This document shows, piece after piece, positions 24,192-38,389 of a stretch of DNA of 64,000 bases. Position 1 is the first letter of the stretch; every line of letters begins with the position of its first letter. Source of the DNA: Affinundibacterium baiyunense (GTDB taxonomy: Bacteria; Pseudomonadota; Gammaproteobacteria; Burkholderiales; Burkholderiaceae_D); contig NZ_JAGSPM010000007.1 in assembly GCF_018139645.1 (NCBI RefSeq), positions 124,001-188,000 of the forward strand, given 5' to 3'. The notes beneath the pieces are model-generated. The model saw only the letters and a list, made by a program, of their open reading frames with translations. It was not told the DNA's origin and made no database searches. A program made the position numbers and the translations under genes.

Positions 24192-24343
24192 GCTTCCACC
24201 TCGATCTGATAAATAACCTGCACAACTGCATCAGTGCTTACGCCAAGCATTTTTGAAACTGCTGCGATACGTTCGGCATCGTTCTTATGAAGTCCGTAGA
24301 TGTCCTCATACGTTTCTTGGATTCTTTGTTTGCTTACGATCAT
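24188..24343 (-). CDS. 51-aa coupled early protein, HTH-like
   Basis: The gene fits exactly between its neighbours: its ATG (24343) overlaps the upstream stop as ATGA and its TGA overlaps the downstream GTG start as GTGA. The product is M-I-V-S-K-Q-R-I..., ending in IEVEA, with AERIAAVSKMLGVSTDAVVQV resembling a helix-turn-helix. A weak GCGAG precedes the start. The double overlap is strong support for translation; the function is unknown. Confidence 0.65.
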   Translation of the reverse strand: MIVSKQRIQETYEDIYGLHKNDAERIAAVSKMLGVSTDAVVQVIYQIEVEA

Positions 24344-24954
24344 TGTTCTACTCGCTTAAATTCTAAAACCCATACCCATGGATTTGCTTCCCATGACTCT
24401 GCGCCGTTGATGGATTCCCAAATATGCTTGAAGTGCTCGACTGGTGTTGCCGCATACTGATAGTTTGGAATCGCACCATGGCCGCCAATTGCTCCCTCTG
24501 ACATTGCGTCTTCCTCGCTGATGTCCTGCAGGCGCTCAACACGAACACCGGTGATTTCGAGCGTGATCCTGCTTGCCCAGCGTGGCATGTGGATTGATGT
24601 CCGAGTCTTTCCTTTAGTATTCCCATGAAAAGCGCCATGGGTAAGAACTTTTCCGTCTGCTTCGTACTTCACTGGCCAGCTAGCGAATGTCGAAGGTGCT
24701 TTGCTGTCTAGGCTGTCGTCGGTTCGCCATGTTTCGCGAACCCATAGTTGATCGCCAACTTGACCATAGGGGCATTCTTTGCCTGATTGCTTTAGCAATT
24801 GCGCAAGCACTTTCGCGTCGCCTTCCCAATCTATGATCTTGTTTTCTGAAACCGCTTGAGGTTGTGGCGTAATGATCCTACGCGTCTGAGTTTTGCTACC
24901 ATCAAGCAAAGCGCGCACCATCGGGGCACTGAATAGAATAGGGCGCTGTTTCAT
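24340..24954 (-). CDS. ASCH/PUA-like phage protein
   Basis: 204 aa. The start KQRPILFSAPMVRALLDGSKTQTRR, the middle GQVGDQLWVRETWRTD, and the end WESINGAESWEANPWVWVLEFKRVE are the hallmarks of a widespread temperate-phage family related to ASCH/PUA-like RNA-binding domains. The first segment resembles the family's beta strand plus TQTRR site. The role is not known. Overlaps rdgC by four bases. Confidence 0.75.
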   Translation of the reverse strand: MKQRPILFSAPMVRALLDGSKTQTRRIITPQPQAVSENKIIDWEGDAKVLAQLLKQSGKECPYGQVGDQLWVRETWRTDDSLDSKAPSTFASWPVKYEADGKVLTHGAFHGNTKGKTRTSIHMPRWASRITLEITGVRVERLQDISEEDAMSEGAIGGHGAIPNYQYAATPVEHFKHIWESINGAESWEANPWVWVLEFKRVEQ

Positions 24955-25886
24955 GCTGTCACCTTCGCAGTTTCATTAACCAAATCCATCTGATAATCCA
25001 GCTCGCCACCAAGCGAATAAACGATGTCGTCCAACATCTTGTTTAGCTCGGCTGTCATCAGCAAAAAGTCAGCATCGAAACGCTCTTGCTCATCTTGGAC
25101 GTCCTGTTTTGACTCTGCCAAAATATCCAATGGCTTGATACGCTTGATTACTAGGCTATCGGTCAAAATAAACGAGATACGATCATCCCAAGTCATAGCC
25201 AGTTTCGTGCATTGCTTGCCTGCTGCGATGTGGCGCTGTACATCGTCAGGATCGATAGAGTGACGAACGTAGCGAACCGTGGCTTTATCTTCGGTATGTG
25301 CTCGCAAATCGGCGTCTTGGTCAATCGTGAAACCTTTAGGTGCTTCGTTGCCAGCTAGCCAATCGGTCATTGCGGTTTGAGGTGCAGTCTTGGAGCGCAG
25401 CGACTCAATAGGGAACGTATCGATAGACTTGAGCAGGTGCTTAAGAATGTCATCTGCCTTGCTTTGGCTGCTTGTGTCCATCACTAGCCAGCCGTTAACC
25501 GGATCGATCCAGATTCCTACCGCGCTTTGAACTGTGAATGCACGCGGCAACAGTTCGTCAATAATGCGTTCCTTCAAATCCTTTTGGGCTTTGCGTCCTG
25601 GTCGGAATCCTTGCTGTTCTTCCAATTCATCGACGCGAGCTTTCAAGACTTGGCTAACCACTGATGACGGAAGCAATTTCTTCGCAGTCATGAACTTGAG
25701 CAAGAATTGATGATTGACGCAGTGTGCAAGCAAGCCTTTTTCAATCGGTGGCACAAAGCCAGAACTAGAATCATCAGACGATCCGCAGTCGGAAAACTGC
25801 ATGCGGGTCAAAAATGCGTGCAGGGCTTCTACCGTGATCGCGTAATTCTTTGGCAAGCGGAATACTGTTAGATTTTTGAACCACAT
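24951..25886 (-). CDS. rdgC: Recombination-associated protein RdgC, phage-borne
   Basis: 311 aa, full length for RdgC, a ring-shaped DNA-binding protein that restrains RecA. Seen: MWFKNLTVFRL start, GFVPP after an acidic linker, LLPRAF, WIDPVNGWLVMDT, and SIDTFPIESL in the expected order. It lies in the phage recombination block with the YqaJ exonuclease and RecT, so it probably tunes recombination of phage DNA (inference). Confidence 0.9.
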   Translation of the reverse strand: MWFKNLTVFRLPKNYAITVEALHAFLTRMQFSDCGSSDDSSSGFVPPIEKGLLAHCVNHQFLLKFMTAKKLLPSSVVSQVLKARVDELEEQQGFRPGRKAQKDLKERIIDELLPRAFTVQSAVGIWIDPVNGWLVMDTSSQSKADDILKHLLKSIDTFPIESLRSKTAPQTAMTDWLAGNEAPKGFTIDQDADLRAHTEDKATVRYVRHSIDPDDVQRHIAAGKQCTKLAMTWDDRISFILTDSLVIKRIKPLDILAESKQDVQDEQERFDADFLLMTAELNKMLDDIVYSLGGELDYQMDLVNETAKVTA

Positions 25887-25919
25887 GGTTTCTCTCTGAG
25901 TTTTGGTTAATGTTGGCTA

Positions 25920-27455
25920 TTAAGCCGCTTTTGCGGATTCAAAGAATGTGGATTCGATCCACCCAGCCGCTGTTCGTGCATCCGTTTTAAAGTGCATTGC
26001 TACAGCAAAGATGATTTGATCTCGCGTTGGTTTCATTGATACGACTTCCGCGACAGGGGAATCTTGCTGAACTTGCGCGGTCGATTTCAAAATAGCCTTC
26101 TCGGCTTCGAGTTGTGCAGCTTCTTGTGCCTTTGCTTGCTCTTCGACTTTGGCTGCATCTTCGGCTTTTTTCGCTTCGGCTGCTTTGTGCGCATCAATGC
26201 GGCTGTTCACTAGCAATTGAAAGTCATCCGCTGGTTTGAATACGATTTGCTGCAGGTCATGGAACAAGAATTTATGTTCTGCTGCGACTGACTCATACCA
26301 GGTGATCTGTTCGCGCAATGCGTTGGCTACAGCGTTGGCCGCTGCCTTGCCTTGTGCCACAGTCGTATCAACAGCATCGTTTAGGCTCGCCAATGTGCGT
26401 TTGTTTTTAATTGCTGTTGCTAAATCGATAGCAGGCAACACCAGCTTGATCGGCGCGAATGGCTTTTCCAGTGCGTCAACGTATGATTGATATTCCTGCT
26501 TGCCGCGATTCAAAATATCCAGTTTGATCGACTCTTTCTTGGATTTGACCAGCTTCTCAAGCATTAGGCGCTTACTACGCAATTGCTCCTGAATGTAATC
26601 AACGGTGCGCATCAATTTGTCAATGCTAGACGTTTGAGCGATTGCGGCGGCCTTTGCTAGTTCTAAGTCTTTTTCGGCCTTTTCGCAAAACTTCACTGTT
26701 GCGTCAGCATCTGCAAAGTCTTGATCTGTTTCAAGGTCTGTCTTTATGTTGTTAATGAATGCTTCAGCTTGAGCCTTGAACTCTGGCATATTGCTTACAA
26801 CGACTTCGCCGCGAATCTGTACGGCGAGGGCGGGTAAGCGCATGATTGACTCTGCCTTTGGCGCTTCGACTATTTCTGCGATGACGTGGTTTTCCAAGTC
26901 TTCTGCAAACTGGCACCAGCCTTGAATTATTGCATCGCGAATTTCTTGATCTGATTCGTACCAGTGATGTACTTCCTCAACCAGTGTTTCGCCTTCCCAC
27001 TTTGACGCCATAAAGAGGCACTTTGTGGCATTGGCAATCATCAACTGCTGTTCCATTTGAACGCGTAAATGTGCGCCTAGATCCGCCGCGCATGTGGCTG
27101 CACGGATTTCGTCATTGATCGTTTTATGTTCAAAACAAATGGTTTCATCCATAGTCAAACCGTCGAATGAAGCGCTTAACTTACCCTCTGAGCCTGTCAC
27201 AGGATAAAGATCTTGACCAATGATTTCTTCTGCCAGTGGACGTGCCAAAGCTTCGAAGCGGTGACCGTCATCAAAACGGCGCTGTGTTTCTGCGTCGATC
27301 TCTGGCGCAATACCGGATTTCATTTCATTCAGCAATTGAGTGCGCGTTTTGTAAGGTGATAAGCCAAGCATTGCTGGCGCATCAGAGGCATTAAAATGCG
27401 TTGCGCGATAGGCTTTCCATTCTGGCGAGCCTTGAACCAAGTTTTGATATTCCAT
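25920..27455 (-). CDS. YqaJ-type phage exonuclease with long coiled-coil C-terminus
   Basis: 511 aa. Residues about 1-210 are a YqaJ/lambda-exonuclease-like nuclease: QGSPEWKAYRATHFNASDAPAMLG at the start, then ASFDGL and CFEHK carrying the acidic and lysine metal-site residues. The remaining 300 residues are helical and charged (for example AAEAKKAEDAAKVEEQAKAQ), ending in a compact QIIFAVAMHFKTDARTAAGWIE module. GAGG spaced 7 bases supports ATG 27455 rather than the TTG at 27467. It would resect double-strand ends for the neighbouring RecT annealase. Confidence 0.82.
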   Translation of the reverse strand: MEYQNLVQGSPEWKAYRATHFNASDAPAMLGLSPYKTRTQLLNEMKSGIAPEIDAETQRRFDDGHRFEALARPLAEEIIGQDLYPVTGSEGKLSASFDGLTMDETICFEHKTINDEIRAATCAADLGAHLRVQMEQQLMIANATKCLFMASKWEGETLVEEVHHWYESDQEIRDAIIQGWCQFAEDLENHVIAEIVEAPKAESIMRLPALAVQIRGEVVVSNMPEFKAQAEAFINNIKTDLETDQDFADADATVKFCEKAEKDLELAKAAAIAQTSSIDKLMRTVDYIQEQLRSKRLMLEKLVKSKKESIKLDILNRGKQEYQSYVDALEKPFAPIKLVLPAIDLATAIKNKRTLASLNDAVDTTVAQGKAAANAVANALREQITWYESVAAEHKFLFHDLQQIVFKPADDFQLLVNSRIDAHKAAEAKKAEDAAKVEEQAKAQEAAQLEAEKAILKSTAQVQQDSPVAEVVSMKPTRDQIIFAVAMHFKTDARTAAGWIESTFFESAKAA

Positions 27456-27456
27456 G

Positions 27457-28350
27457 TTATGCCTCAACTGTCATGTTGATTATTGATTTGAGTTCTGCTT
27501 TTTGTTTCTCGGACAGAACAGCTTTTGATGAAACGGTGCTGATGATTTGATCTGCGGTTTTCTTGCCGTCTTTGATCAGCTTTTCCCATGCGCCAATGTT
27601 CTTGTCGAAATCAGCATCAGAGTAGGGCGGCAAAACTTTTTCTTGTTCTTGTGATGGCTTTGGAGTGATGTCTATTTCTTTTGGAATTGAGAACTCTTCG
27701 AGTTCATCACCGGTATAAACGCCAAGAATTACATCAGGGCAGTACATGCGAGACCAGCGCTTAACCGCTAAATATGAAAGCTGCAGTTTCGGGTCGGTAG
27801 CCCAAAGAGGAGAATTTCTAACGCTAGCTTGAACCAAAAGAAGTTCAAGAACGCGAGGCTCATTTTCGCCTTTTAGCGTTGCGGAAATGCGCACGCCCAG
27901 CCCAGCTTCGTCAGCCATGCCGTAATCAGGCACGCGGAATTCATACGCTTTTTTGTCTTCTTTGGCTGGAACAGAAATCACCTTTGTCTTGCCGATGATC
28001 TTTTCCCATGCTCCGAAGAACTCATAATTGAAACGATCTTTTGTTACGCCGCTGGACTGAATAGCGGCATTTACCAATTGGGCTTCATAGCCTAAGGTTC
28101 CATTGACCAGATGTGTTTTTTGAGCGACCGCAAAAGGATTCATTTGCCACTGCATTGCTTGCATGATCACAGCCAAGCAATCGCCTTCATTGCGCTGAAG
28201 GTGCTTCGGAACTGTGCAGCTACCACCCGCCATAATTTTAGAAAGGGCGATCATACTAGTCATGCTAGCTTGGTCTAATATCAGGGAGGCTGTATTTGTC
28301 ACCAGCTTCATATCCTCTGATTTATCGCTTACTTGTACTATTTCGTTCAT
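27457..28350 (-). CDS. recT: RecT family single-strand annealing protein
   Basis: 297 aa. The family core runs through SMIALSKIMAGGSCTVPKHLQRNEGDCLAVIMQAMQW, with LGYEAQLVNAAI, WATDPKLQLSYLAVKRWSRMYCPDVILGVYT. It anneals ssDNA and works with the adjacent exonuclease. Its 3' end abuts the exonuclease start, giving translational coupling. First large gene of the early leftward operon. Confidence 0.88.
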   Translation of the reverse strand: MNEIVQVSDKSEDMKLVTNTASLILDQASMTSMIALSKIMAGGSCTVPKHLQRNEGDCLAVIMQAMQWQMNPFAVAQKTHLVNGTLGYEAQLVNAAIQSSGVTKDRFNYEFFGAWEKIIGKTKVISVPAKEDKKAYEFRVPDYGMADEAGLGVRISATLKGENEPRVLELLLVQASVRNSPLWATDPKLQLSYLAVKRWSRMYCPDVILGVYTGDELEEFSIPKEIDITPKPSQEQEKVLPPYSDADFDKNIGAWEKLIKDGKKTADQIISTVSSKAVLSEKQKAELKSIINMTVEA

Positions 28351-28450
28351 TTGTAATACTCCTTGTGAATAGTGTTCTTTGCTAACTTGAATGCGTTTTT
28401 AAACGTGTGGCCAATGCTCCGGTACCACATAAAATCTTTAATGAAATTGA

Positions 28451-28588
28451 TCATATTTCTGTCACCGTTAAACCGAATGCTTCCTCTGGTAAATCAATGT
28501 TTTCACCAGCCGCTTTAGCGCTTGGAGCAATCGCGAAAACCTGCGTTGTGCCAGTCGCTGTTCTGATTTTTATTGAGTAGGTTTTCAT
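28451..28588 (-). CDS. 45-aa early phage protein
   Basis: MKTYSIKIRTATGTTQVFA... with SAKAAGENIDLP and ending GLTVTEI. CAGGAGCG six bases before the ATG at 28588 is a strong ribosome site and decides the start; the frame open further upstream runs through the tRNA-like element and is not used. Probably the first protein made from PL. No function recognised. Confidence 0.65.
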   Translation of the reverse strand: MKTYSIKIRTATGTTQVFAIAPSAKAAGENIDLPEEAFGLTVTEI

Positions 28589-28608
28589 GCTCGCTCCTGT
28601 TAAATTGA

Positions 28609-28680
28609 TGTGGTGGAAGGACTCGAACCTTCTCGCGTTTCGCTGTGCTAGGCACATTACTAGCGCTGCCATTCACCACA
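28609..28680 (-). ncRNA. tRNA-like element in the early leader
   Basis: Read on the minus strand, 72 bases fold with a perfect 7-bp acceptor stem TGTGGTG/CACCACA, a D-arm with GGCA/TGCC, and a perfect 5-bp T-arm GAAGG-TTCGAGT-CCTTC. The region between D- and T-arms is only 18 bases and forms no canonical anticodon arm (it contains GCG-AAA-CGC). No CCA is encoded. It may be a decayed phage tRNA or a tRNA mimic. Confidence 0.45.
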
Positions 28681-28753
28681 TGACTGACGACTGATACCTG
28701 CCGTCACAGAGCGATCTAACGGAATCGCATCTCTCAATCATCAGTCATGTGGT
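28675..28753. repeat. 13-bp inverted repeat overlapping the tRNA-like acceptor
   Basis: ACCACATGACTGA (28675-28687) and TCAGTCATGTGGT (28741-28753) are perfect complements. The left arm shares ACCACA with the 5' acceptor strand of the tRNA-like element, so the two folds exclude one another in RNA. Confidence 0.6.
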
Positions 28754-29090
28754 TCCTGCACACTTGCGCGGTGCAGGTTACGCAAAACAAATTCCTATTA
28801 ATCTCTACGTATTCAGTTCGTCGCATTTCAGCGAGGCTTACCCAAGCCCGTAAGCAAGGCGGCGTTTTACATGATTGCCTCCATATCGTTAGCGCATCGG
28901 TTTCGGCGTATGCGCAGCGCCATCGAAATTTTTACGGCTCCTAACGCAGAGCAAGCGGGTCATCATCGGCAAGACCATCGAGGCATTTTGGGGCACTGCC
29001 AACGCTGCATAAGAACACTGGCTTATGCGCCTGAACTGGTCGGTTTGCTGCTTTGCCGATTCACTGGCTGCTTTCGGTGATTCGATGAAG
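28754..29090 (-). other. Gene-poor early leader with hairpins
   Basis: From the predicted PL start (about 29087) to the first convincing start codon (28588) lie about 500 bases. Hairpins: GCTTAC/GTAAGC (28836-28841, 28850-28855), GCGCAT/ATGCGC (28892-28897, 28910-28915) and GCATAAG/CTTATGC (29007-29013, 29022-29028). A 70-codon frame at 28889-29101 starts with GTG upstream of the predicted transcript start and is not trusted. A structured, perhaps antiterminating, leader is possible. Confidence 0.4.
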
Positions 29091-29093
29091 ATA

Positions 29094-29137
29094 ATTATCA
29101 CATACGTGTTTAACTGAAGTCAAACACATTTGTGTTT
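29094..29137 (-). promoter_or_regulatory. Early leftward promoter PL with two repressor operators
   Basis: Minus-strand TTGACT (29123-29118), 18 bases, GATAAT (29099-29094). Two operator-like 16-mers overlap it: 29096-29111 and 29122-29137 (AAACACATTTGTGTTT), each matching 12 of 16 bases of the AAACACGAACGTGTTT site at the repressor/cro region. This mirrors lambda OL. Confidence 0.75.
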
Positions 29138-29211
29138 ATTTTCCAAATATTTTTTTCTTGGCTGAAAATTTGTGCAAAAGAGACGACTTTAAGGGTGACG
29201 GGTAAAATTAT

Positions 29212-29243
29212 TTACACGTAATTTGCATGTAAATTACGTGTAA
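29212..29243. repeat. 32-bp near-perfect palindrome beside PL
   Basis: TTACACGTAATTT (29212-29224) and AAATTACGTGTAA (29231-29243) are exact complements around GCATGT. It lies between the PL operators and the terminator of the immunity-region cassette. ACGTGT within the arms recalls the operator half-site, but the spacing differs. Confidence 0.65.
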
Positions 29244-29284
29244 GTGTTGCGGAAATGGGAAAGTGAAGCGGGTTAGGGCGTAAA

Positions 29285-29306
29285 AAAACCCGCCGTAGCG
29301 GGTTTA
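29285..29306 (-). terminator. Terminator of the immunity-region cassette
   Basis: AAACCCGC (29286-29293) and GCGGGTTT (29298-29305) around CGTA, with a run of seven A on the plus strand giving a T-run on the minus strand. It ends transcription coming from the repressor side before PL. Confidence 0.8.
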
Positions 29307-29324
29307 GTTGGGTGTTTTCAGTAG

Positions 29325-30005
29325 CTACTTTGGCGCAGTCTGCTTTGGTTGATTAAGTTTTTCCAATAACGCACGGGTAGCTTCATTTTGCTTTTGAATG
29401 GCTAGCTGTATTTCGTCACTTTGTTTCTTAATCTGCTCGCTTTGTTGCTTTAACTCAGCTTGACTCTGCGATAAATTTTTCCCAGACTCAAATGCCGCCA
29501 GCATTGTTTGTAGCGTCGCAATATTTGCGCCAAACAACCCAATTACTGTAGCTATGGCAGTAACAATTATTGTAGTTTTTAAGGATGAAATATCTTTCTT
29601 GCGCTCGCGCTTGTCTTCTTCAAGTCCTAATTCAATTTTGTCAAATGTCTTTTCGATTCTTTCGAAGCGAAAGGTGGCACTTTTTTCTCTTTCTTCTGAT
29701 CTTGCCATTGCCTCATCAATTTTGCCTATCGCAGACGCAATTCGGCCGTCCATTCTTGCTTCAATGGCTTCAAGTTTTGCATTAAGTTCATCTTTTGACG
29801 GTGTATTCATGACGCCATCTTCACCAATTTTCTTTGTGGTGTCAACGCCTAACGTTTTTTTTAGTTTTGGTATGTTCGTATAATAATGGATGGTCTGCTT
29901 GGATCCCCCTGTAGAAGTTCTTATTTCTTGTTCTACTTGTTTTGGATGCAAACTATATTTTCTAAGAAGTTCGCTCGCCTCTTTGGTGCCTAATTCACGG
30001 CTCAT
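29325..30005 (-). CDS. Membrane-anchored coiled-coil protein of unknown function
   Basis: 226 aa. Order: an N-terminal basic region (EASELLRKYSLHPKQVEQEI) that could be a small DNA- or protein-binding fold; heptad-rich helices from about 70 to 130; one membrane segment TTIIVTAIATVIGLFGANIA near 147-166; then a long second coiled coil rich in Q/K/E. It is the last gene of the cassette between repressor and PL, where lambda carries rexB, also a membrane protein. Membrane-acting exclusion is a guess. Confidence 0.65.
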   Translation of the reverse strand: MSRELGTKEASELLRKYSLHPKQVEQEIRTSTGGSKQTIHYYTNIPKLKKTLGVDTTKKIGEDGVMNTPSKDELNAKLEAIEARMDGRIASAIGKIDEAMARSEEREKSATFRFERIEKTFDKIELGLEEDKRERKKDISSLKTTIIVTAIATVIGLFGANIATLQTMLAAFESGKNLSQSQAELKQQSEQIKKQSDEIQLAIQKQNEATRALLEKLNQPKQTAPK

Positions 30006-30432
30006 TTTTTGAAATCTCCTTAAGAGTGCTTTCGAAAAAAGATTTCATGCTTTCACTAGATATTTTCCCGATAATTTTGTTTAAAAATTCCGGGTTATGC
30101 GCCCAAGCAAGCCTTGGCTCTTCAAAAGGATTCTCGATAATATTTTCGAATTCCTCAACAGAAAGATCCCACCATGAAATATGTCCACATGATTTACAAA
30201 TGCTCGTGAACGCTAATAATTGAAGCTCATCAAGTGGCACAGTTGCTTGTGTACGAATTGAGTTTCTTGTCTCACGATTTACGTCCAAAAGCCATCTAAT
30301 AAAATACTGCTCAATCGGCATTGAAAATGCAGACATCTGGAGCGCCGTAACAGGCTCTTTGCACGCAGGGCAGTTTCGTTTCCGTTGCCTAAATGGCTTC
30401 GATTCTTCTTTGTTTTCGGTTTCTTTCGTCAT
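29995..30432 (-). CDS. Hypothetical zinc-ribbon protein
   Basis: 145 aa starting at MTKETENKEESKPF; the open frame further upstream lies over the nuclease gene and is ignored. CPACKEPV (near 23) and CKSCGHISWWDL (near 85) give two CxxC pairs that could hold one zinc. The rest is helical and acidic. Its stop overlaps the next gene by 11 bases. No family recognised. Confidence 0.6.
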   Translation of the reverse strand: MTKETENKEESKPFRQRKRNCPACKEPVTALQMSAFSMPIEQYFIRWLLDVNRETRNSIRTQATVPLDELQLLAFTSICKSCGHISWWDLSVEEFENIIENPFEEPRLAWAHNPEFLNKIIGKISSESMKSFFESTLKEISKNEP

Positions 30433-30469
30433 ATATTCGTATCTCGATTCCAATTTATGTATGCGCAAA

Positions 30470-30928
30470 TTACCTTGTTCGAAGTTGCCTCCTAAACTCC
30501 CAAGGCGCAACCGGCTCCCGATCACTCCAAAGTCCAATCTTCTTATCTCGCGCATCTGCCTCAATCGCTGGCAGCATCGAATCCTTGTTGTATTTCGGAT
30601 AAACCCAAGCCATGCCTCGGCGAACTTGCTCTGTATTGGCTTCAACGTCATTGCAAAACACTACCGCAACAGTGCGCCCATATCGATCGACAGTCTGAGC
30701 CTCATAAGTCGCATCAGTTCCCCAGCAAATATCCGATAGTGACTCTTTGGACTTTTGCCCGAATGCTTGCTTCCTCTCTGGTGCGTCGATGTTGGCTAAG
30801 CGTATTTTCAGCGGCTTTCCTTCGACAAGCAGCGTCATTGTGTCTCCATCGCTGATTCCTACAACTTTGTGCGCATAAGCAGTGGGAATGCAAAGTGTCA
30901 AAAGTATTGAAAATATCAGCTTTTGCAT
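30470..30928 (-). CDS. Exported thermonuclease-family (SNase-like) nuclease
   Basis: 152 aa. A signal peptide (MQKLIFSILLTLCIPTAYA) precedes an OB-fold nuclease: VVGISDGDTMTLL, KIRLANIDAPERKQAFG with R43 and E51, and DRYGRTVAVV with R85, the residues equivalent to staphylococcal nuclease Arg35, Glu43 and Arg87; AWVYPKY follows. All catalytic residues are present. It would act in the periplasm or outside the cell on DNA or RNA. Carried in the lysogenically expressed position. Confidence 0.85.
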   Translation of the reverse strand: MQKLIFSILLTLCIPTAYAHKVVGISDGDTMTLLVEGKPLKIRLANIDAPERKQAFGQKSKESLSDICWGTDATYEAQTVDRYGRTVAVVFCNDVEANTEQVRRGMAWVYPKYNKDSMLPAIEADARDKKIGLWSDREPVAPWEFRRQLRTR

Positions 30929-31758
30929 TTGCGAATCACGCTCAATATTAATATTGGCGTAATCCCGTATTGATTTATCGGTCTGCCTAGTGATTGCCGT
31001 ATGCCGGCTTTCATTGGGTCTAGATGCGCAGCTACTGATCCAATTTGCGAAAGATCAATTGCCGAATTATTTGCATCTGGTTTCGCATCAAGAACACCCA
31101 TTACGTACCAGTTTCCTTGAATTTTCCCACCATGCTTCAACATCAGATCCCCGCTTGAAATAAGCATAGAGTCGGGCTTTAATGTGTACCAGCATTGAAT
31201 GTCGTCTTCAGTTTTTATACTGCCTTGTATCAAGTGTGGCACGTGCTTGACCAGCTCCAAGATCATTTTAGAATCTCTTCTTGCGTTGTCAGTAAATGCT
31301 TTTCTGTCTTTTGGCGACTTCAGTTCGGCCTCATTCTTAATATTCATTTCTAGAATTGCTGGCCACATCTCTTTGAGCATTGAGAAATCCATCAGCGTGA
31401 GACTGCCATTAACCAACACCATCGACCCAAGGTCGGCATTTTTTATCTTCTCTTCTAGGAAGCCATTTTCCCACAGCGAATTCAGAACATCAGATGGGCG
31501 TGAATAGCTGGTATCAATCTGGTGCTCGATACCAGATTCGGCGCCACTCTCTCCAGTGTAGTCGCCTTTTAATACGCCAATGCTTGCGCCTCCTTTAAAG
31601 ACATCTTTATCCGAATGCCTTTGGGTTTTTTTGGAGCTTGAAATTAAGCCATCGTTTGATAGCTGCGCATAAATGTGAGAAAGTCGTAACTGATCAATGT
31701 ATAAAAAATTAAAGATCGATTCGACGTTTTGTGAGTTTTGTTCCGCGCTTGATGTCAT
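30916..31758 (-). CDS. DUF6414-like protein
   Basis: 280 aa. The opening NFLYIDQLRLSHIYAQLSNDGLI and the following pattern with DTSYSRPSDVLNSLWENG resemble the DUF6414 group of uncharacterised proteins; this is recalled by pattern and is not certain. The second half includes MVLVNGSLTLMDFSMLKEMWP and WYVMGVLDAK. No catalytic motif is evident. It overlaps the nuclease gene by 13 bases and the small gene upstream by 50. A phage-exclusion role is suggested only by location. Confidence 0.6.
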   Translation of the reverse strand: MTSSAEQNSQNVESIFNFLYIDQLRLSHIYAQLSNDGLISSSKKTQRHSDKDVFKGGASIGVLKGDYTGESGAESGIEHQIDTSYSRPSDVLNSLWENGFLEEKIKNADLGSMVLVNGSLTLMDFSMLKEMWPAILEMNIKNEAELKSPKDRKAFTDNARRDSKMILELVKHVPHLIQGSIKTEDDIQCWYTLKPDSMLISSGDLMLKHGGKIQGNWYVMGVLDAKPDANNSAIDLSQIGSVAAHLDPMKAGIRQSLGRPINQYGITPILILSVIRKCKS

Positions 31759-31906
31759 CTTTTACTTTCGCAATGTGAGCACTTGTCTGAGCATGCGATT
31801 GTTTCAATGACTTGATGAGGGGATTTACAGCAACAGCAATATCTCTCTCAGCATTTTGCTGTGAGATAACTAGTTTCTTTAGCGAATCAAAGAATGTGCC
31901 GTTCAT
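31709..31906 (-). CDS. Hypothetical small helical protein
   Basis: 65 aa, helical and basic, with SLKKLVISQQNAERDIAVAVNPLIKSLKQSHAQTSAHIAKVKDDIKRG. Its 3' end overlaps the DUF6414-like gene by 50 bases in another frame, an unusually long overlap, so either it is coupled or one start is misplaced. Confidence 0.5.
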   Translation of the reverse strand: MNGTFFDSLKKLVISQQNAERDIAVAVNPLIKSLKQSHAQTSAHIAKVKDDIKRGTKLTKRRIDL

Positions 31907-32025
31907 GACTCCATCTTAATCATTGATATTGAAAACCGCAAGTATTGTTATTTGTTAAGCAAAATCGCCCAGGAGTAGGGCGATTCTCAAAGCTAAATAT
32001 TTTCTTATCGATCGAATTGGCAGTT

Positions 32026-32253
32026 TTAAGGCTTGACTCCATATTTCTTTATGAAGTTTTCTTCCATCATTTCACAAGCGCCTGCTATAAACCTTGCTTC
32101 TTCAGGTGTGTTTGACTTCTTTGCTTGATTTTCCCAGCAAAGACTTATCGCATCTCGATTGTTCGCCTTTTCTTTATCTTCAGGGCTTTGATTTAATCCC
32201 GCTATTATTAAAATAAAAATTACAGCGCCAATCATGATAAATACAGTCCTCAT
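32026..32253 (-). CDS. Small phage protein with N-terminal membrane anchor
   Basis: 75 aa. An N-terminal hydrophobic segment (TVFIMIGAVIFILIIAGL) is followed by a soluble part with AISLCWENQAKKSNTPEEARFIAGACEMMEENFIKKYG, a pattern found beside repressors in temperate phages of Burkholderiales; the two cysteines may pair in the periplasm. Function unknown. Confidence 0.65.
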   Translation of the reverse strand: MRTVFIMIGAVIFILIIAGLNQSPEDKEKANNRDAISLCWENQAKKSNTPEEARFIAGACEMMEENFIKKYGVKP

Positions 32254-32322
32254 CTAACAACCTTTATAAAAATTTTAAAAACGCGCAGATGAGCTTTATG
32301 GCAATAACTGTGCCAGAAAGAA

Positions 32323-33000
32323 TTATTTCTTACGATAACGACGATGCTCAACCATGGTTCCAATAATTTTCAACGGAACTATGTCAGAGTGCATAGGAGG
32401 GTAGTCGGGATTTAGGGGCAGCAAATCAAATACTGGATTGCCGTTTTCGTCGTATTTACCACGGGGGCGAAACTTTTTGAATGTCGCTTCCTCATGACCA
32501 TTTTTTGCGACAACAAAATCGCCTGGCATAGGCTCTATCAATGGATCAACAATAATTCGATCACCTTCCTTGAAGTCAGGCAGCATTGATTCGCCACGAA
32601 TTTCAAGCGCAAAAGCATTTGCACTCAAATCAATAAGGTCTGTTTGTAGGTACTCCGAAGCGTCCCCGATTTGATACGGGTCAACGATCTCAGCCATACC
32701 ACCAGCCTGTACGTAGCTTATTAATGGAATGCGCCTAACACCCATGGATATGATTAATTGACCTTTAGAGTCAAGGGTTTGCGTATCGGCAGCTTCTGCA
32801 ATTCCTTTTCCCTCTGCGAGCCATACCGGATTAACGCCTAATGCGGTTGCTATGGCTGTAATGCTTCTAGCGGTTAGACGAATCCCTGCCTCAAGGTTTC
32901 CAATTGTTGATTGCGAAACGCCAGATTTCTTGGCCAATTCAGCCTGAGATAAATTTTTTTGCTCCCTAGCCCATGCTAGGCGCGTTGCTAATGTTTTCAT
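32323..33000 (-). CDS. CI-like S24 phage repressor
   Basis: 225 aa. An N-terminal XRE helix-turn-helix (LSQAELAKKSGVSQSTIGNLEAG, residues 18-39) is joined to a LexA/S24 peptidase domain: cleavage site A99-G100 in VQAGGM, nucleophile S138 in RGESMLP and base K175 in ATFKKF. RecA-stimulated self-cleavage on DNA damage is therefore expected to trigger induction. Its start codon abuts an operator (33000-33015), consistent with control of its own promoter. Confidence 0.92.
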   Translation of the reverse strand: MKTLATRLAWAREQKNLSQAELAKKSGVSQSTIGNLEAGIRLTARSITAIATALGVNPVWLAEGKGIAEAADTQTLDSKGQLIISMGVRRIPLISYVQAGGMAEIVDPYQIGDASEYLQTDLIDLSANAFALEIRGESMLPDFKEGDRIIVDPLIEPMPGDFVVAKNGHEEATFKKFRPRGKYDENGNPVFDLLPLNPDYPPMHSDIVPLKIIGTMVEHRRYRKK

Positions 33001-33066
33001 AACACGAATGTATTACATAACTAACTCACGTAGGTGTTGACATGAGAAACACGAACGTGTTTAAAT
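33000..33066. promoter_or_regulatory. Right operator region with three sites and promoter PR
   Basis: Three related 16-mers: 33000-33015 (TAACACGAATGTATTA), 33024-33039 (ACTCACGTAGGTGTTG) and 33047-33062 (AAACACGAACGTGTTT, nearly perfect palindrome). Their centres are 24 and 23 bases apart, as in lambda OR. PR is TTGACA (33037-33042) with TTTAAA/TTAAAT at 33060-33066. The -10 lies so near the cro start that the mRNA may be leaderless. Confidence 0.8.
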
Positions 33067-33072
33067 GTGGCT

Positions 33073-33288
33073 ATGGATACCCAAAAAATCACATCAGAAC
33101 TACTCGCCTCCGGCTTGACTCAGCAGGAACTTGCGTCAATGGCTAAGTGCAGCCAATCGCTTATCAGCGCATTACTTCGCGGTGAGCGCGGCACTCGGCT
33201 TTCTTTTGAAATTGGCAATCGTTTGATTCGCTTGCATAAGCGTCGATGCGCTAAACGAAAAGACGAGGCCGAAGTAATCGCAGCATAA
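33073..33288 (+). CDS. Cro-like helix-turn-helix protein
   Basis: 71 aa. An HTH (LTQQELASMAKCSQSLISALLRGER, about 14-38) is followed by a basic tail (RRCAKRKDE). Divergent from the repressor across the operators, as Cro is. A GTG at 33067 is an alternative start; neither has a clear ribosome site, and the promoter -10 ends at about 33066, so leaderless translation is plausible. Confidence 0.8.
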   Translation: MDTQKITSELLASGLTQQELASMAKCSQSLISALLRGERGTRLSFEIGNRLIRLHKRRCAKRKDEAEVIAA

Positions 33289-33412
33289 ATAAAAATGTTT
33301 TTTCAATTTTTAAACCTTGTCTCTTTATTGAATTTGCAGTGAAAGACCCCTGATTTTTCACAGTATCAACTTAAAACTTTAGCTTGTCACATTTAAAAGA
33401 AAGAAAAAACAA

Positions 33413-33859
33413 ATGACTACTCCACAAGACGCTTTTTACCAAACCTGCAAAAAATATCCGGGCGGATTTGAATCTCTCGCCCCACGCATGGGCATGAGCG
33501 GCCAAGTTTTGCGCAACAAAGCAAACCCAAACTGCGCACAGAATCACATCAATCTGTCTGATGTTGAGCAGATCATGACCTTGACCGGCGACTTATCCAT
33601 TCTTCACGCGCTTGCAGAAGAGCAGGGGTGCGCGTTGGTAAAAGTAGATGCCAGCGGCAATGCTTCTGACCTTGCAGTTTTGGAGCTAGTGACAAAGGTA
33701 TGGATGCATAACGGGAATGTCGGCGCGGAAGTCAGTCGCACATTGGAGGATGGTCGCGTTGAGGCATGTGAGGTTGAAAAGGTCGCGGAGGCTGTTTTCC
33801 GCACCACAGAAGCTTTGATGACTATGTTGGGGCGTTTGCGTGGGATGGCTGAAAAATGA
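33413..33859 (+). CDS. CII-like phage regulatory protein (CP76 type)
   Basis: 148 aa. The start DAFYQTCKKYPGGFESLAPRMGMSGQVLRNKANP and LSDVEQIMTLTGDLSILHALAEEQG match the phage regulatory CII/CP76 (YmfL-like) family. It probably influences the lysis-lysogeny choice. The 124-base leader holds a short stem, GTGAAA/TTTCAC, and an AAGAAAG ribosome site. Confidence 0.8.
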   Translation: MTTPQDAFYQTCKKYPGGFESLAPRMGMSGQVLRNKANPNCAQNHINLSDVEQIMTLTGDLSILHALAEEQGCALVKVDASGNASDLAVLELVTKVWMHNGNVGAEVSRTLEDGRVEACEVEKVAEAVFRTTEALMTMLGRLRGMAEK

Positions 33860-34167
33860 GAACCCAAGTGCGCGATACATCAATTGATGCTTATCACGGC
33901 ATTGGCAATGCTTACAAAGCGACTGTTTGCGATTCGATTTACTCAATCGTAGCTGAATCAAAATCTGCTTTGTCTCTGCGTGAAATCCAATCACGTTATA
34001 ACGATCTATTCGAGGCGAATATTGACGTGTCAACGGTAAGCGCACGAGTAAATGAATTAATTACAGCGGGGCGGCTCGAGCGCACGGCGCCAATGCGCAA
34101 ATGCAATTTCAGCGGCAAGACTGTTCATCCTGTTTCTGTTGTACCTGTTCAGTTGAGGCTTGTATGA
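33856..34167 (+). CDS. Small winged-helix phage protein
   Basis: 103 aa. Residues about 28-75 (DSIYSIVAESKSALSLREIQSRYNDLF...ISTVSARVNELITAGRLER-like) form a winged helix with the DVSTVSARVNEL recognition helix. Overlaps both neighbours by ATGA. Probably an early regulator; target unknown. Confidence 0.6.
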   Translation: MRTQVRDTSIDAYHGIGNAYKATVCDSIYSIVAESKSALSLREIQSRYNDLFEANIDVSTVSARVNELITAGRLERTAPMRKCNFSGKTVHPVSVVPVQLRLV

Positions 34168-34703
34168 AAGCCTTGGTCATGCGCAATCGTGCGATTCAAA
34201 TGTCATCCATTGAGAAAGAGGCTGCAACTAAAGCGCTTCAAGAATGCATTCATGGCGTTGACGAAAAAAATCAGAAATCTTGGATGCGATTCTTACGCAA
34301 TTTGTTTTCTCTCGAAGATGGGGAGATCGCTGAAATAGGCACACGCATTCCGCGCTCGGGACCTTTTCATCGTTTTCACATGGCGATGGAACAAGCTTTA
34401 TTTGATGCGCAAGACCGCTTCAATGAATTCGAGCAGTTCCGCAACTGGCTCAAGATCGGCTCTGGTCATGTTGTTTGGGTACCAGGTGCCAAAGGTGGCA
34501 TCGTTCCTTTGCCGAAATCAATCAGCTACATTGATTTAGAAGAATCTGCGATGCGCGAGTTTCATCAAAACATGCTGGCTTTCTTGCGTGGCGCACATGC
34601 AGCGCCTTACCTTTGGAAGCACTTAGGCGAAAAGTCTCACGACATGATGGCTTCGGTGCTTGTCGAGTTTGAAGATCGCTCTGTCGCGCGGAGGGCTGCA
34701 TGA
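34164..34703 (+). CDS. DUF1367 family phage protein
   Basis: 179 aa from the ATG at 34164, which overlaps the upstream stop; the frame open to 34101 is ignored. The block PFHRFHMAMEQALFDAQDRFNEFEQFRNWLK with WVPGAKGGIVPLPKSISYIDLEES is characteristic of DUF1367, common in lambdoid early regions near ninB-like recombination genes. Function unknown. Overlaps the methyltransferase start (ATGA). Confidence 0.7.
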   Translation: MKALVMRNRAIQMSSIEKEAATKALQECIHGVDEKNQKSWMRFLRNLFSLEDGEIAEIGTRIPRSGPFHRFHMAMEQALFDAQDRFNEFEQFRNWLKIGSGHVVWVPGAKGGIVPLPKSISYIDLEESAMREFHQNMLAFLRGAHAAPYLWKHLGEKSHDMMASVLVEFEDRSVARRAA

Positions 34704-35902
34704 GATACCTATCAGTATGCAGCGGCATCGAAGCCGCGACGGTAGCTTGGCACTCACTAGGATGGACACCGGTAGCATTTAGTGAAATTGAGAAATTCCC
34801 TTCTCAGGTGCTTTCTCATCACTACCCAACAGTGCCTAACCTGGGCGACATGACGAAATTTAAGGAGTGGAATCTTGGAGCAATTGACCTTCTTGTCGGC
34901 GGAACCCCATGTCAATCATTCTCAGTTGCAGGACTTAGAAAAGGATTGGATGACCCGCGTGGCAACCTCATGCTTACCTACCTTGCCATTGCTGAACAAT
35001 TTAAGCCCAAGTGGCTGGTATGGGAAAACGTCCCCGGTGTTCTGTCATCAAACGGAGGAAAAGACTTTGGTTCCTTGCTCGGAGGGTTGGCAGAACTCGG
35101 GTATGGGTTCGCCTACCGCATTCTTGACGCTCAATACTTCGGAGTTCCACAGCGCCGCCGCCGTGTGTTCGTTGTCGGATGTCTTGGAGACTGGCGAGCT
35201 GCCGCAGCGGTACTTTTTGAGCGCCACAGCTTGCAGGGGAATTCTGCGCCGCAGCGTGAAGCGGGGAAAGGCGTTGCCGGCACAATTAGCAAGTGCTCTT
35301 TCGATGGCGGCGCAGGAGGAAGACCAGAAGGCGCTGCCGCAGGGCATTTCCAAGTAGTTGGCACGCTAGGCGCAAGAACAGGCTTATCAATCGGTGCACA
35401 AGATGCTGCATGTGGTCACATGATAGCAACTTTCGATCGTCAATCATCAGGTGAATATGGGACTGCAAAAATCGCATCTACGGTAAGCGCGCGCGATTAT
35501 AAAGGCGCTGCCGATTTAGTTACTTATGAAACTGTGCCAACCCTCACCAGCAACGGCGATGCACATTCTGGCTTCCGTGATGAACATGGCTTGGGGGTTG
35601 GCTGGTCAGAAGAATTAACGGCTTCAGTTGATCTAGCAGGAACCTTGCAACGCGGTGGTAATGGTGGTCGCCATGATGGCGTGATGGTTCACTCACAAGT
35701 GCGCAGATTAACCCCACGAGAGTGCGAAAGATTACAAGGCTTTCCCGATGACTACACGCTGATTCCAGTTGGCAAAAGGATTGCGGCTGATGGCCCGCGT
35801 TACAAAGCACTTGGAAACAGCATGGCTGTGCCGGTCATGCATTGGATCGGCGATCGTATTGCTCAAGTAGAGCAGATTTCTGACGCAAAGGTGGCCGCAT
35901 GA
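34700..35902 (+). CDS. C5 cytosine DNA methyltransferase, phage orphan
   Basis: 400 aa. Motif I SVCSGIEA (5-12), motif IV GGTPCQSFS with catalytic C71, motif VI ENVPG, motif VIII QRRRRVF, a variable target-recognition region of about 130 residues, and motif X with GNSMAVPV are all present. No cognate endonuclease is next to it, so it is likely to protect phage DNA from host restriction or modify the lysogen's DNA (inference). Target sequence unknown. Confidence 0.92.
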   Translation: MRYLSVCSGIEAATVAWHSLGWTPVAFSEIEKFPSQVLSHHYPTVPNLGDMTKFKEWNLGAIDLLVGGTPCQSFSVAGLRKGLDDPRGNLMLTYLAIAEQFKPKWLVWENVPGVLSSNGGKDFGSLLGGLAELGYGFAYRILDAQYFGVPQRRRRVFVVGCLGDWRAAAAVLFERHSLQGNSAPQREAGKGVAGTISKCSFDGGAGGRPEGAAAGHFQVVGTLGARTGLSIGAQDAACGHMIATFDRQSSGEYGTAKIASTVSARDYKGAADLVTYETVPTLTSNGDAHSGFRDEHGLGVGWSEELTASVDLAGTLQRGGNGGRHDGVMVHSQVRRLTPRECERLQGFPDDYTLIPVGKRIAADGPRYKALGNSMAVPVMHWIGDRIAQVEQISDAKVAA

Positions 35903-36195
35903 AACGCTCAAGCACAGTAGCAGAAAAACGCCACATGCAGCGCGTAGCAGAGATGGGCTGCATCGTATGTTCGCACATCTACGATCACAAAGACACGCCA
36001 GCACAAGTGCACCACGTTCGCGTAAATCATGGTTGGGGTCGATCAAGTCACTTCATGACGATCCCTTTGTGCGTCGAACATCACACAGGAAAAACAGGCG
36101 TTCATTCAATGGGGCGCGATGAATTCGAATCGCTGCACGGGTACAGCGAATTGCGCTTGCTTGAAATCGTACAAGATAAATTAGGGGTTAATTGA
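35899..36195 (+). CDS. Ref-like HNH-type nuclease
   Basis: 98 aa. CIVCSHI, QVHHVRVNHGWGRSSHFMTIPLCVEHHTGKTGVHSMGRDEFESLHG fits the Ref (P1 recombination enhancement function)/DUF968 family: a zinc-binding cysteine pair, HH motif, and C..HH with GxxGVH. Ref is a RecA-directed DNA endonuclease. Overlaps the methyltransferase stop by four bases. Confidence 0.78.
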   Translation: MKRSSTVAEKRHMQRVAEMGCIVCSHIYDHKDTPAQVHHVRVNHGWGRSSHFMTIPLCVEHHTGKTGVHSMGRDEFESLHGYSELRLLEIVQDKLGVN

Positions 36196-36944
36196 TGGAA
36201 TGGTTCCGCATGTATTCAGAGTTCTGCTCTGATCCAAAAGTTCAATCAATGAGTGAAGCCATGCAGCGTCGTTTAGTCATGCTGTTATGCCTTCGTTGCA
36301 GTAACACCCTTGTAACGTTACATGATGATGAGATTGCATTTGCATTGCGTATTGATGAAACAGAGTTAGCGCAAACAAAGGAACTATTTCTGCGCAAAGG
36401 CTTCATTGATTCAACGTGGGAAATTCAGAATTGGGATAAACGCCAATTCGTCTCAGACTCAAGCGCACCAAGGGTTGCAAAGCACAGAGCGGCAAAAAAA
36501 GAGGCTCAAAATCAAGCAGAAAATGAATGTAACGTTACTGTAACGCCCCAGATACAGAACAGAACAGATACAGAACAGATACAGAACAAAGAAGAAATAA
36601 AACCTAGCGCCAAGGCGCAAAAGTTTGATTTTACTGCCAAGTTGATTGAGCTTGGTGCTGACGAAAAATCTGTTCGTGATTGGCTAGCTGTTCGCAAATT
36701 GAAGCGAGCAGCTAACACAGAAACCGTGATTGAAAACCTTGTTCGTGAGGCCGCAAAGGCGCAAGTATCCGTCGCAGATGCTGTCCTAATTTGCGCTACC
36801 CGCAGTTGGCAGGGGTTTGAGGCTGAGTGGCTAAAGCCAAAGGCCCAAGCGTCGCCAGTTCGTGATGGATCAAAACTCGGTGTACATGGGCAAGCCACAG
36901 CAAACGCAGCACAAAAATGGTTGGAGAGCAAAAATGCAGGATAA
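36195..36944 (+). CDS. Phage replication protein, initiator-like
   Basis: 249 aa. The N-terminal 100 residues (WFRMYSEFCSDPKVQSMSEAMQRRLVMLLCLRCSN...DEIAFALRIDETELAQTKELFLRKGFI) are the winged-helix start of phage replication O-like proteins; a low-complexity Q/N/E linker with DNA repeats follows, then a C-terminal helical domain. ATG 36195 overlaps the upstream TGA. It is paired with the DUF6475 gene in the O-P position. An origin may lie inside it. Confidence 0.72.
   Translation: MEWFRMYSEFCSDPKVQSMSEAMQRRLVMLLCLRCSNTLVTLHDDEIAFALRIDETELAQTKELFLRKGFIDSTWEIQNWDKRQFVSDSSAPRVAKHRAAKKEAQNQAENECNVTVTPQIQNRTDTEQIQNKEEIKPSAKAQKFDFTAKLIELGADEKSVRDWLAVRKLKRAANTETVIENLVREAAKAQVSVADAVLICATRSWQGFEAEWLKPKAQASPVRDGSKLGVHGQATANAAQKWLESKNAG
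36529..36587. repeat. Candidate origin repeats inside the replication gene
   Basis: Three copies of the 11-mer AGATACAGAAC start at 36550, 36566 and 36577. They follow a palindrome GTAACGTTAC at 36529-36538, which also occurs at 36312-36321, and precede the A-rich AAAGAAGAAATAAAACC. Lambda keeps its iterons and AT-rich origin inside gene O in the same way. Confidence 0.45.
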
Positions 36945-37575
36945 CGATCAAGTGAAATTTGTAACGATTTTGACCGGCATTGCCGACTACTACGGCAAAA
37001 CTTTGGCGCAAGGCGTTATCGAGTTGTACTGGCAGGGATTGCGCCAATACGACATTGAAGCCGTGGAAAAGGCGCTTTGGGAGCATACGCAAAATCCAGA
37101 CAACGGCCAATTCATGCCGAAAATCGCAGATGTGACGCGAACACTGCAAGGCAGAACTCAAGATCAGGCGTCAATTGCCTGGTCAAAAGTTGATGCCGCA
37201 GTTCGAAAGATTGGCACCTATCGCGATGTCGTTTTCGATGACGGAATTATTCATCGCGTTCTGTCAGATATGGGCGGGTGGATCGGTCTTGGCATGAAAA
37301 CAGAGGACGACTGGCCATTCGTAGCGCGTGAGTTTGAGAATCGGTATCGAGGCTACAAGCTGCGTGGCGAAGTCCCTGAATATCCTCCCTTAATGCTTGG
37401 AATTGCGAATGCTCAGAATGCAATGAGCGGCATGCAGGGGCAAGAGCCAGTGCTGATTGGTAAAGCTGAAAAAGCACAACAGGTTCTTCTTGGCGGAACA
37501 GATAAACCAATGATTGCGATGACCGATGCATCTGAAAAGCTTCCTGAATTTAAACCAAGGTTGATCGCCGCATGA
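36934..37575 (+). CDS. DUF6475-type phage replication protein
   Basis: 213 aa from MQDNDQVKFVTIL, with GGAGAG spaced for ATG 36934. KFVTILTGIADYYGKTL...LYWQGLRQYDIEAVEKALWEHTQNPDNGQFMPKIADVTRTLQG matches the DUF6475 domain found in temperate phages after the O-like gene, where a lambda P-type helicase loader would be. It begins inside the 3' end of the upstream gene. Loader function is inferred from position. Confidence 0.75.
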   Translation: MQDNDQVKFVTILTGIADYYGKTLAQGVIELYWQGLRQYDIEAVEKALWEHTQNPDNGQFMPKIADVTRTLQGRTQDQASIAWSKVDAAVRKIGTYRDVVFDDGIIHRVLSDMGGWIGLGMKTEDDWPFVAREFENRYRGYKLRGEVPEYPPLMLGIANAQNAMSGMQGQEPVLIGKAEKAQQVLLGGTDKPMIAMTDASEKLPEFKPRLIAA

Positions 37576-37784
37576 CCGAATGCATCAAATGCCAAAACCT
37601 AGACCTAAAAGCAGATGAGCGCATGACTAAGGTCGGATTTAGTCGGTGCAAGAAGCTGTCAGCGTATGAGTTTGTGAGTATCAAGCGCGACATTCATTGC
37701 AGCGATTACAAAGAGGATAAGCCTGAAGTGATCGAAAAGCGGATTGCATGGAGGGCTCAACGTGAGGCATGCAAAACGTACTGA
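37572..37784 (+). CDS. Small cysteine-containing phage protein
   Basis: 70 aa, overlapping the upstream stop (ATGA). CIKCQNLDL, GFSRCKKL and HCSDY give a four-cysteine pattern of a type common in Burkholderiales phages next to replication genes; probably a zinc-binding mini-domain. Function unknown. Confidence 0.62.
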   Translation: MTECIKCQNLDLKADERMTKVGFSRCKKLSAYEFVSIKRDIHCSDYKEDKPEVIEKRIAWRAQREACKTY

Positions 37785-38381: not shown

Positions 38382-38389
38382 GGTGAATT

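Follow-up and report, generated by a model that had tools for sequence, protein, structure and literature searches.

Lysogenic exclusion cargo in the rex slot, the position between the CI repressor and the left operon that rexA and rexB hold in phage lambda, is a known kind of prophage content. Few prophage genes are positioned to be transcribed in lysogens; those of the rex slot belong to them, and several known ones are defence systems. For example, the Pseudomonas putida prophage P1 carries a two-gene RexAB-type defence downstream of a CI-like repressor (PMC12894663), the Rex-like pairs of actinophages are exclusion systems at this position (PMC11077077), and the bstA gene of prophage BTP1, located downstream of the CI repressor, is tied to this locus across Gram-negative bacteria (PMC8585504). 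Nucleases acting on incoming DNA have also been described, including SNIPE, which is bound to the membrane and cleaves phage DNA as it is injected (PMC13190303), and extracellular DNases that phages carry among the integrated elements of Campylobacter jejuni (PMC10893306). Here we analysed a 64,000-nucleotide stretch of the Affinundibacterium baiyunense genome (contig NZ_JAGSPM010000007.1, positions 124,001 to 188,000; hereafter the window), where six genes, g1 to g6, lie between the CI-type repressor gene and the candidate leftward promoter (PL) of a prophage. As judged by gene linkage, this locus is a composite rex-slot cargo island, in which two separately recurring modules, the g2-g3 pair encoding a DUF6414 protein and the staphylococcal nuclease (SNase)-type gene g4, are adjacent, and not one six-gene system.

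All six codirectional open reading frames (ORFs) listed in an initial annotation of this DNA were confirmed on the minus strand (coordinates are those of the window; aa, amino acids):

32026..32253, minus strand: g1, 75 aa, hydrophobic N-terminal segment, phrog_32667
31709..31906, minus strand: g2, 65-aa helical protein, 50-bp overlap with g3, family C-terminus GARxTKHRxxL
30916..31758, minus strand: g3, 280 aa, DUF6414, phrog_9699
30470..30928, minus strand: g4, 152 aa, SNase-type nuclease, hydrophobic N-terminus, residues taken as catalytic
29995..30432, minus strand: g5, 145 aa, weak zinc-ribbon match (the listed ORF is 29995-30651, and a start at 30432 is more likely)
29325..30005, minus strand: g6, 226 aa, coiled-coil-like, one hydrophobic stretch (residues 146-164), near-orphan

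The initial annotation took the six genes for one system and named conserved linkage elsewhere as a test, which failed for the full set. Relatives of g1, g4, g5 and g6 were absent from the surroundings of 88 other DUF6414 sequences, and relatives of g1, g2, g3, g5 and g6 were absent around 80 viral SNase loci, in both cases within the available stretches. A single six-gene system was rejected because the gene set occurs together nowhere else in the DUF6414 and SNase neighbourhoods searched; what did emerge from the search is that the g2-g3 pair and the g4 nuclease each recur behind the repressors of other temperate phages. The suggested partnership of the nuclease with the membrane coiled-coil protein found no comparative support, since g6 has only one weak partial relative among 299 other genomes of the order. 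Among the viral SNase loci, no gene family recurred three times in the interval between repressor and nuclease, so that the nuclease itself is the constant element.

The DUF6414 pair and its fixed overlap

The g3 protein matches DUF6414 (E 2.1e-7, 31.4 bits with a cut-off of 25 bits) and phrog_9699 (2.4e-60). A scan of viral contigs with the single g3 sequence gave no match, and a scan of the same kind with an alignment of DUF6414 proteins gave 73 loci. Further relatives were found in 13 of 50,697 phage records (from Bordetella, Moraxella and Acinetobacter), at 10 loci in genome contigs, in two of the 399 genomes of the order (including that of the window), in one of 72,556 plasmid records, which is a 5.4-Mb Klebsiella record, and in nine of 5,426 Escherichia coli genomes, a wider count of 21 genomes including matches on short pieces. 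The PF19952 model was matched in 7 of 398 genomes of the phylum, again with the window's own, and, among 14 control genomes, in that of Haloferax volcanii alone. Clustering of the DUF6414 proteins with 150 aa or more, a length that excludes the 104-aa L083, gave 32 clusters at 90% identity, 24 at 70% and 16 at 50%.

In the first five relatives, a small ORF with the same C-terminal motif overlaps the start of the DUF6414 gene, although it is unannotated in two of the four annotated records. The overlap is fixed to the nucleotide, as the stop codon of the small ORF starts two bases into the same DUF6414 codon in 85 of 89 sequences (a redundant set that includes the window); the four exceptions are distant, frame-disrupted or truncated sequences, namely, L015, L073 (at the edge of its contig), L083 and L089. 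For the counts of start codons and terminators, the 24 clusters at 70% identity were reduced to 22 representatives by omitting L015 (frame-disrupted, with masked letters) and L089 (distant). In 21 of these, the stop depends on a Phe or Tyr codon that ends in T and never in C, whereas the C-ended share of Phe/Tyr codons in those 21 genes is 5-62%; the product of the chances for all-T codons at this site is ~1e-4, taking the clusters as independent. In the remaining representative, Ser replaces Phe/Tyr and the stop is still kept. For the part of the small gene outside the overlap, the ratio of nonsynonymous to synonymous polymorphism (pN/pS) is 0.45 in its own frame, whereas the two alternative frames give 0.88 and 0.92 (17 sequences and 79-81 pairs, with L035 omitted for its different length), showing coding selection on the small gene. 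An in-frame DUF6414 start codon is located 8-16 codons before the anchor in all 32 representatives, which were taken at 95% identity with a minimum length of 250 aa and without the window, L015 or L089. The DUF6414 start lies at exactly 33 nt in 20 of the 22 representatives, the window and its Duganella relative starting four codons upstream.

The small proteins are mostly 56-76 aa long, with two longer ones, and 25 of the 33 family members match phrog_15141. The g2 protein has no Pfam match at E <=1, and its structure model is a single helix of low confidence (predicted template modelling score, pTM, 0.30). It lacks a hydrophobic segment (best 19-residue value 0.39, compared with 1.32 for g3), and neither protein of the pair is strongly hydrophobic. 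The DUF6414 model has a confident core (predicted local distance difference test, pLDDT, 78; pTM 0.71). In 14 of the 22 representatives, a terminator-like hairpin follows the pair at a distance of up to 300 nt, and the DUF6414 coding sequences themselves (17,595 nt) contain none. Taken together, these features indicate that g2 and g3 form a module of two genes, recurrent in other temperate phages, whose overlap is fixed.

Within 1.7 kb upstream of the pair, a repressor-like gene of the same direction is present in 11 of the 24 clusters, including the window, a count for which the panel of repressor queries was widened by its own first matches and to which L089 contributes a weak repressor match. 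Among named phages, the pair lies behind the repressor in Bordetella IFTN4, beside the integrase in Bordetella IFTN2, and among tail genes in Acinetobacter qsb1 and Moraxella Mcat17, so that, as expected of the accessory prophage units called morons, it occupies unrelated sites in unrelated phages, with repressor, tail-gene and integrase neighbourhoods. The lambdoid prophages of E. coli TUM9868 and 13TMH22 share one arrangement, with replication genes, a helix-turn-helix (HTH) gene, a CI-type repressor and then the pair, consisting of a 59-aa protein and the DUF6414 protein, followed by a cell division inhibitor (Kil), Gam, Bet and an exonuclease. By gene order, this is the place of rexA-rexB in lambda.

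Several other neighbourhoods of DUF6414 genes should be mentioned. A wider DUF6414 protein lies beside an AAA+ ATPase at L142 (5879-8479), another is part of a superintegron-like run of small, spaced, codirectional genes with an FRG-domain gene (L143), and a third is found near GmrSD_N and EcsC genes (L144). These neighbourhoods, from three of the six other PF19952-matching genomes, hint at a broader DUF6414 defence family, although three loci are too few to count. In the viral contig L022 (6104-6766), the gap between the repressor and the DUF6414 pair holds a gene for a 220-aa protein with an N-terminal Zn_Ribbon_1 domain (E 3.7e-7), which is not a BLAST relative of g5.

The repressor-linked nuclease

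The g4 protein matches PF00565 (SNase; E 1.5e-22) and has the residues D27, D29, R43, D48, E51 and R85, which we take to be the SNase catalytic set, so that it belongs to the SNase family by both family match and catalytic residues; all six are kept in 57 of 58 relatives. A hydrophobic stretch was found within the 50 residues before the DGDT motif in all 58 relatives, compared with 96 of 563 random internal pieces. The g4 protein, which itself starts with a hydrophobic stretch, is putatively exported. The sole defence model matched by g4 is C3a212 (SNase + LTD; E 2.5e-7), a candidate-defence model that matches eight of the nine aligned nucleases.

Viral contigs were scanned with the alignment of nine nucleases, and the best 80 of 242 relatives, forming 59 clusters at 80% identity, were used. 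A codirectional repressor-like gene is present within 2 kb upstream of the nuclease in 31 of the 54 representatives with more than 1.5 kb of upstream sequence, and one on the opposite strand in 4 of 54. By comparison, the downstream side has a codirectional repressor in two and an opposite one in two of the 50 representatives with more than 1.5 kb downstream. Over all 59 clusters, an upstream codirectional repressor was identified in 33. When any cluster with a repressor within 1.5 kb is counted, the proportion is 33/56, and it is 6/11 at 60% identity. At the level of single loci, repressors accompany 24 of 37 relatives in the closer half and 18 of 36 in the farther half. Clustered at 40% identity, the 44 linked repressors themselves form 26 groups, and at 30% they form 14. 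Among nuclease relatives derived from genomes, with flanks of 1.5 kb, a repressor was found in 1 of 29, as a weak match. Among named phages, a g4 relative lies directly behind the repressor in Moraxella Mcat8, one gene separates the two in Curvibacter TJ1, and no recognisable repressor precedes the g4 relative in Microcystis Mae-JY22. By this linkage, the g4 group is one of SNase-type nucleases with hydrophobic N-termini that are recurrent just downstream of prophage repressors.

One viral contig (L096, 2274-4510) has a near relative of the window's rex slot with different cargo. The N-terminus of its repressor-like protein is 73% identical to that of the window over 66 aa, and the repressor is followed by a protein of 291 aa, which has a hydrophobic segment, and then by an SNase 68% identical to g4; the 4.9 kb available for this contig contain no DUF6414 pair.

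Immunity region, terminator-like hairpins and remaining genes

The prophage of ~42 kb sits in the ssrA gene for transfer-messenger RNA (tmRNA) and has a 30-bp direct repeat, corresponding to the 3' end of ssrA, at its two boundaries. The leftmost element of its immunity region is candidate PL, which has two operator-like sites; then come a hairpin, the six minus-strand genes and the CI-type repressor, to the right of which lie two further operator-like sites, a Cro-like gene and a CII-like gene. The features of the prophage and the candidate left and right operators (OL and OR) are as follows:

20542..62688, no strand: prophage, 30-bp repeat 20542-20571 = 62659-62688
62659-63019: tmRNA
20599-21807: integrase, assigned by reading the translation
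29097..29136, no strand: candidate OL/PL, two operator-like sites over a minus-strand promoter-like site
29286..29305, minus strand: terminator-like hairpin closing the cassette, 8-bp perfect stem, 4-nt loop, TTTT tail
31963..31985, minus strand: terminator-like hairpin in the g1-g2 gap, 8-bp perfect stem, 7-nt loop, T-rich tail
32323..33000, minus strand: CI-type repressor, HTH_3 and Peptidase_S24
33001..33061, no strand: candidate OR, two operator-like sites (33001, 33048) in the gap between repressor and cro
33067..33288, plus strand: Cro-like HTH protein
33413..33859, plus strand: CII-like regulator (Phage_CP76)

The operator motif AACACGNNCGTGTT, which was derived by reading the window itself, has seven occurrences in the 64 kb with up to two mismatches allowed, compared with a mean of 2.45 in shuffled sequences, of which 1 in 100 reached seven. 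Four of the seven fall in the two gaps of the immunity region (29097, 29123, 33001 and 33048), and those at 29097 and 29123 overlap the promoter-like site 29123->29094. Both the gene order and the operator-like sites at the two gaps therefore back the placement of the cassette between repressor and PL, at the rex position, that had been made in the initial annotation.

Its further description of the genes as mostly overlapping and ending at their own terminator was borne out in part. Overlaps are present at three of the five junctions (g2/g3, 50 bp; g3/g4, 13 bp; g5/g6, 11 bp), whereas g1-g2 and g4-g5 are separated by gaps of 119 and 37 bp. The hairpin 29305->29286 does end the cassette, but a second one, 31985->31963, separates g1 from g2-g6, so that g1 seems to stand apart and the terminator-bounded unit seems to be g2-g6 rather than all six genes. 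A hairpin scan of the coding strand over 29201-33000 identified just these two, with a mean of 0.1 across 40 random sequences, by criteria set after both hairpins had been seen, and a standard scan lists neither. Closure by terminators of its own, here the two hairpins of the window, is another feature expected of a moron. In the g1-g2 gap, no minus-strand sigma-70-like site was listed in the promoter scan.

The remaining cargo genes have few relatives. A g1 relative in an Aeromonas phage adjoins tail genes. The zinc-ribbon assignment of g5 is no more than a weak match below the cut-off (E 0.022), and no g5 relative was found in phage records or in the 299 other genomes of the order. For g6, no relative was found in phage records or in the viral-contig scan; its three weak PADLOC matches, the best being LmuB (E 0.0012), are consistent with a coiled coil.

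Elsewhere in the prophage, a near-perfect 32-nt palindrome (TTACACGTAATTTGCA / TGTAAATTACGTGTAA, 94% complementary) at 29212-29243, with candidate PL on one side and the terminator of the cassette on the other, may act as an additional operator or as a terminator. On the side of candidate PL toward the recombination genes (28680-29100), the sole ORF of at least 40 aa on the PL strand encodes 70 aa (28889-29101), and no N- or Kil-type gene was identified in this interval downstream of candidate PL. By eye, a gene resembling DNA cytosine methyltransferases was noted in the early rightward operon (34700-35902), as well as, toward the right prophage end, a minus-strand HicB-type antitoxin-like gene (60479-60901).

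Proposed lysogenic exclusion, rival explanations and known systems

We propose that this composite rex-slot cargo island stacks exclusion genes expressed in lysogeny, namely, the DUF6414 pair and the putatively exported nuclease, with g1, g5 and g6 as passengers, and we regard the chances of this explanation as evenly balanced. The lysogen would transcribe the cargo genes from its prophage. The DUF6414 pair would act in the cytoplasm as an abortive-infection-like exclusion unit, in which the small helical protein would be an obligate partner or regulator of DUF6414 made in step with it, and such coupling would explain the fixed overlap. The g4 protein would be secreted to the periplasm and cut DNA arriving from outside, that is, phage DNA at injection and possibly other DNA, the host DNA being spared by its different compartment. 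Lysogen expression and an exclusion role are inferred because several of the known genes at the rex place are exclusion systems, and the recurrence of each module beside repressors suggests that the modules keep rival viruses or foreign DNA out.

A number of observations weigh against this explanation. No repressor was found within 1.7 kb of the pair in 13 of the 24 DUF6414 clusters or within 2 kb of the nuclease in 23 of its 54 representatives, and the counted sequences are related, so that the counts are not independent. The SNase-type nuclease family is present in 159 of 300 bacterial genomes, which implies that other roles exist. A match of 14 of the 33 small proteins to phrog_6447, called a membrane protein, is unexpected for a cytoplasmic helix, and a terminator-like hairpin lies within 500 nt before the pair in just 3 of the 22 representatives. 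In DUF6414 no catalytic motif was recognised, and a Foldseek search of the Protein Data Bank (PDB) and BFVD with its model gave no match at E <=0.001, the nucleic-acid-binding proteins among the top names being above that value and not evidence. Finally, no PADLOC model matched g1, g2, g3 or g5 at E <=1.

The most serious rival concerns the nuclease, which might guard the prophage from natural transformation (recombinational loss, incoming DNA) rather than from phages; we consider this possible but rather unlikely. Once exported, the nuclease would attack incoming DNA of every kind, and a g4 relative lies behind the repressor of phage Mcat8 of Moraxella catarrhalis, which is a competent species. 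In addition, an association of phage-borne extracellular DNases with non-transformable strains has been described (PMC10893306). However, the repressor linkage is equally explained by expression in the lysogen for either purpose, and the sequence fits transformation blocking and phage exclusion by g4 equally well. For the pair, we see a smaller chance that g2-g3 is a toxin-antitoxin or addiction module, with a small upstream helical antitoxin translationally coupled to a larger downstream toxin. The gene order, size ratio, fixed overlap and the occurrence of the pair at different sites in different phages all agree with such a module, whereas DUF6414 has no toxin family or fold match, and the small protein, modelled as a single helix at a pTM of just 0.30, has in the window copy no Pfam match at E <=1. 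The toxin-antitoxin and abortive-infection readings of the pair are close and overlap.

It is improbable, in our estimate, that the pair regulates the lysis-lysogeny switch or development of its own phage instead of exclusion. Its slot belongs to the immunity region, and RexA is reported to bias the lambda switch (PMC11077077); nevertheless, the pair is also located among tail genes or beside an integrase, with no repressor near in the stretches shown, and it is rare in E. coli, as counted above. Least probable is that the small ORF is the 5' part of a frameshifted DUF6414 gene, expressed by a prfB-like +1 shift at CUU UGA. CTT-TGA or CTT-TAA is present at the stop in 43 of the 85 sequences, but 31 of the 85 have ATA, CTA, GTA, TTA or CTC before the stop, where re-pairing is expected to fail. 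With these codons and the in-frame DUF6414 start in all 32 representatives, a frameshift fusion of g2-g3 was rejected as the general case.

A recurring exported nuclease in the rex slot would mean that many prophages guard the periplasm, with the compartment as the sole means of self-recognition, and the DUF6414 pair, being in the lambda rexAB place of E. coli prophages, is open to direct testing in a standard laboratory host. DUF6414 was found in no paper of the open-access literature searched, a coverage outside which most subscription papers and preprints fall. Likewise, thermonuclease does not appear together with prophage, superinfection, repressor and lysogen in any open-access paper searched, and the term 'staphylococcal nuclease' is absent from the papers on superinfection exclusion, prophage and periplasm among the matches listed. 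Within this literature, both the DUF6414 unit with its overlap and the recurrent nuclease that is linked to repressors and has a hydrophobic N-terminus appear to be undescribed variants. We put forward tentatively, as less likely than not, that temperate phages possess a widespread and undescribed form of lysogenic immunity, in which an exported SNase-type nuclease made together with the repressor cuts DNA passing through the periplasm and distinguishes self from non-self by compartment alone, and that, as a separate unit, the DUF6414 pair serves in exclusion at the rexAB place of some lambdoid prophages, both being stacked in the one rex slot of this prophage.

Among known systems, lambda RexAB resembles the pair in arrangement, being a two-gene unit after the repressor and before the left operon, as the pair is in the two E. 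coli lambdoid prophages, with a large member of ~280 aa. The window's cassette likewise has the CI repressor on one side and the left operon on the other. Homology of DUF6414 to RexA was rejected, as hhalign of 33 DUF6414 proteins against lambda RexA gave a probability of 0.1% for the sequence profiles, and the small protein family gave 0.04% against RexB, and no RexB-like multi-span membrane effector was recognised in the pair. Unlike RexAB, the pair lacks a strongly hydrophobic segment and has the small gene first and overlapping. The P. putida P1 system differs from the pair in consisting of a RexA-like DNA-binding protein and a membrane effector (PMC12894663), and BstA is a single gene compared with the two-gene DUF6414 unit, the likeness considered here being one of position. 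For the nuclease, the C. jejuni DNases share with g4 the character of a prophage-borne DNase on incoming DNA, the effect described being on transformation (PMC10893306). SNIPE is similar to g4 as an envelope nuclease for which self DNA is spared by location, as we infer for g4. It differs in combining GIY-YIG and DUF4041 domains, neither found in any of the six cassette proteins with Pfam at E <=1, and in facing the cytoplasm, whereas g4 is of the SNase family, has a putative signal peptide and is expected in the periplasm. SNIPE shows that cutting at injection works as a defence, although it is a different nuclease and works from the opposite face of the membrane.

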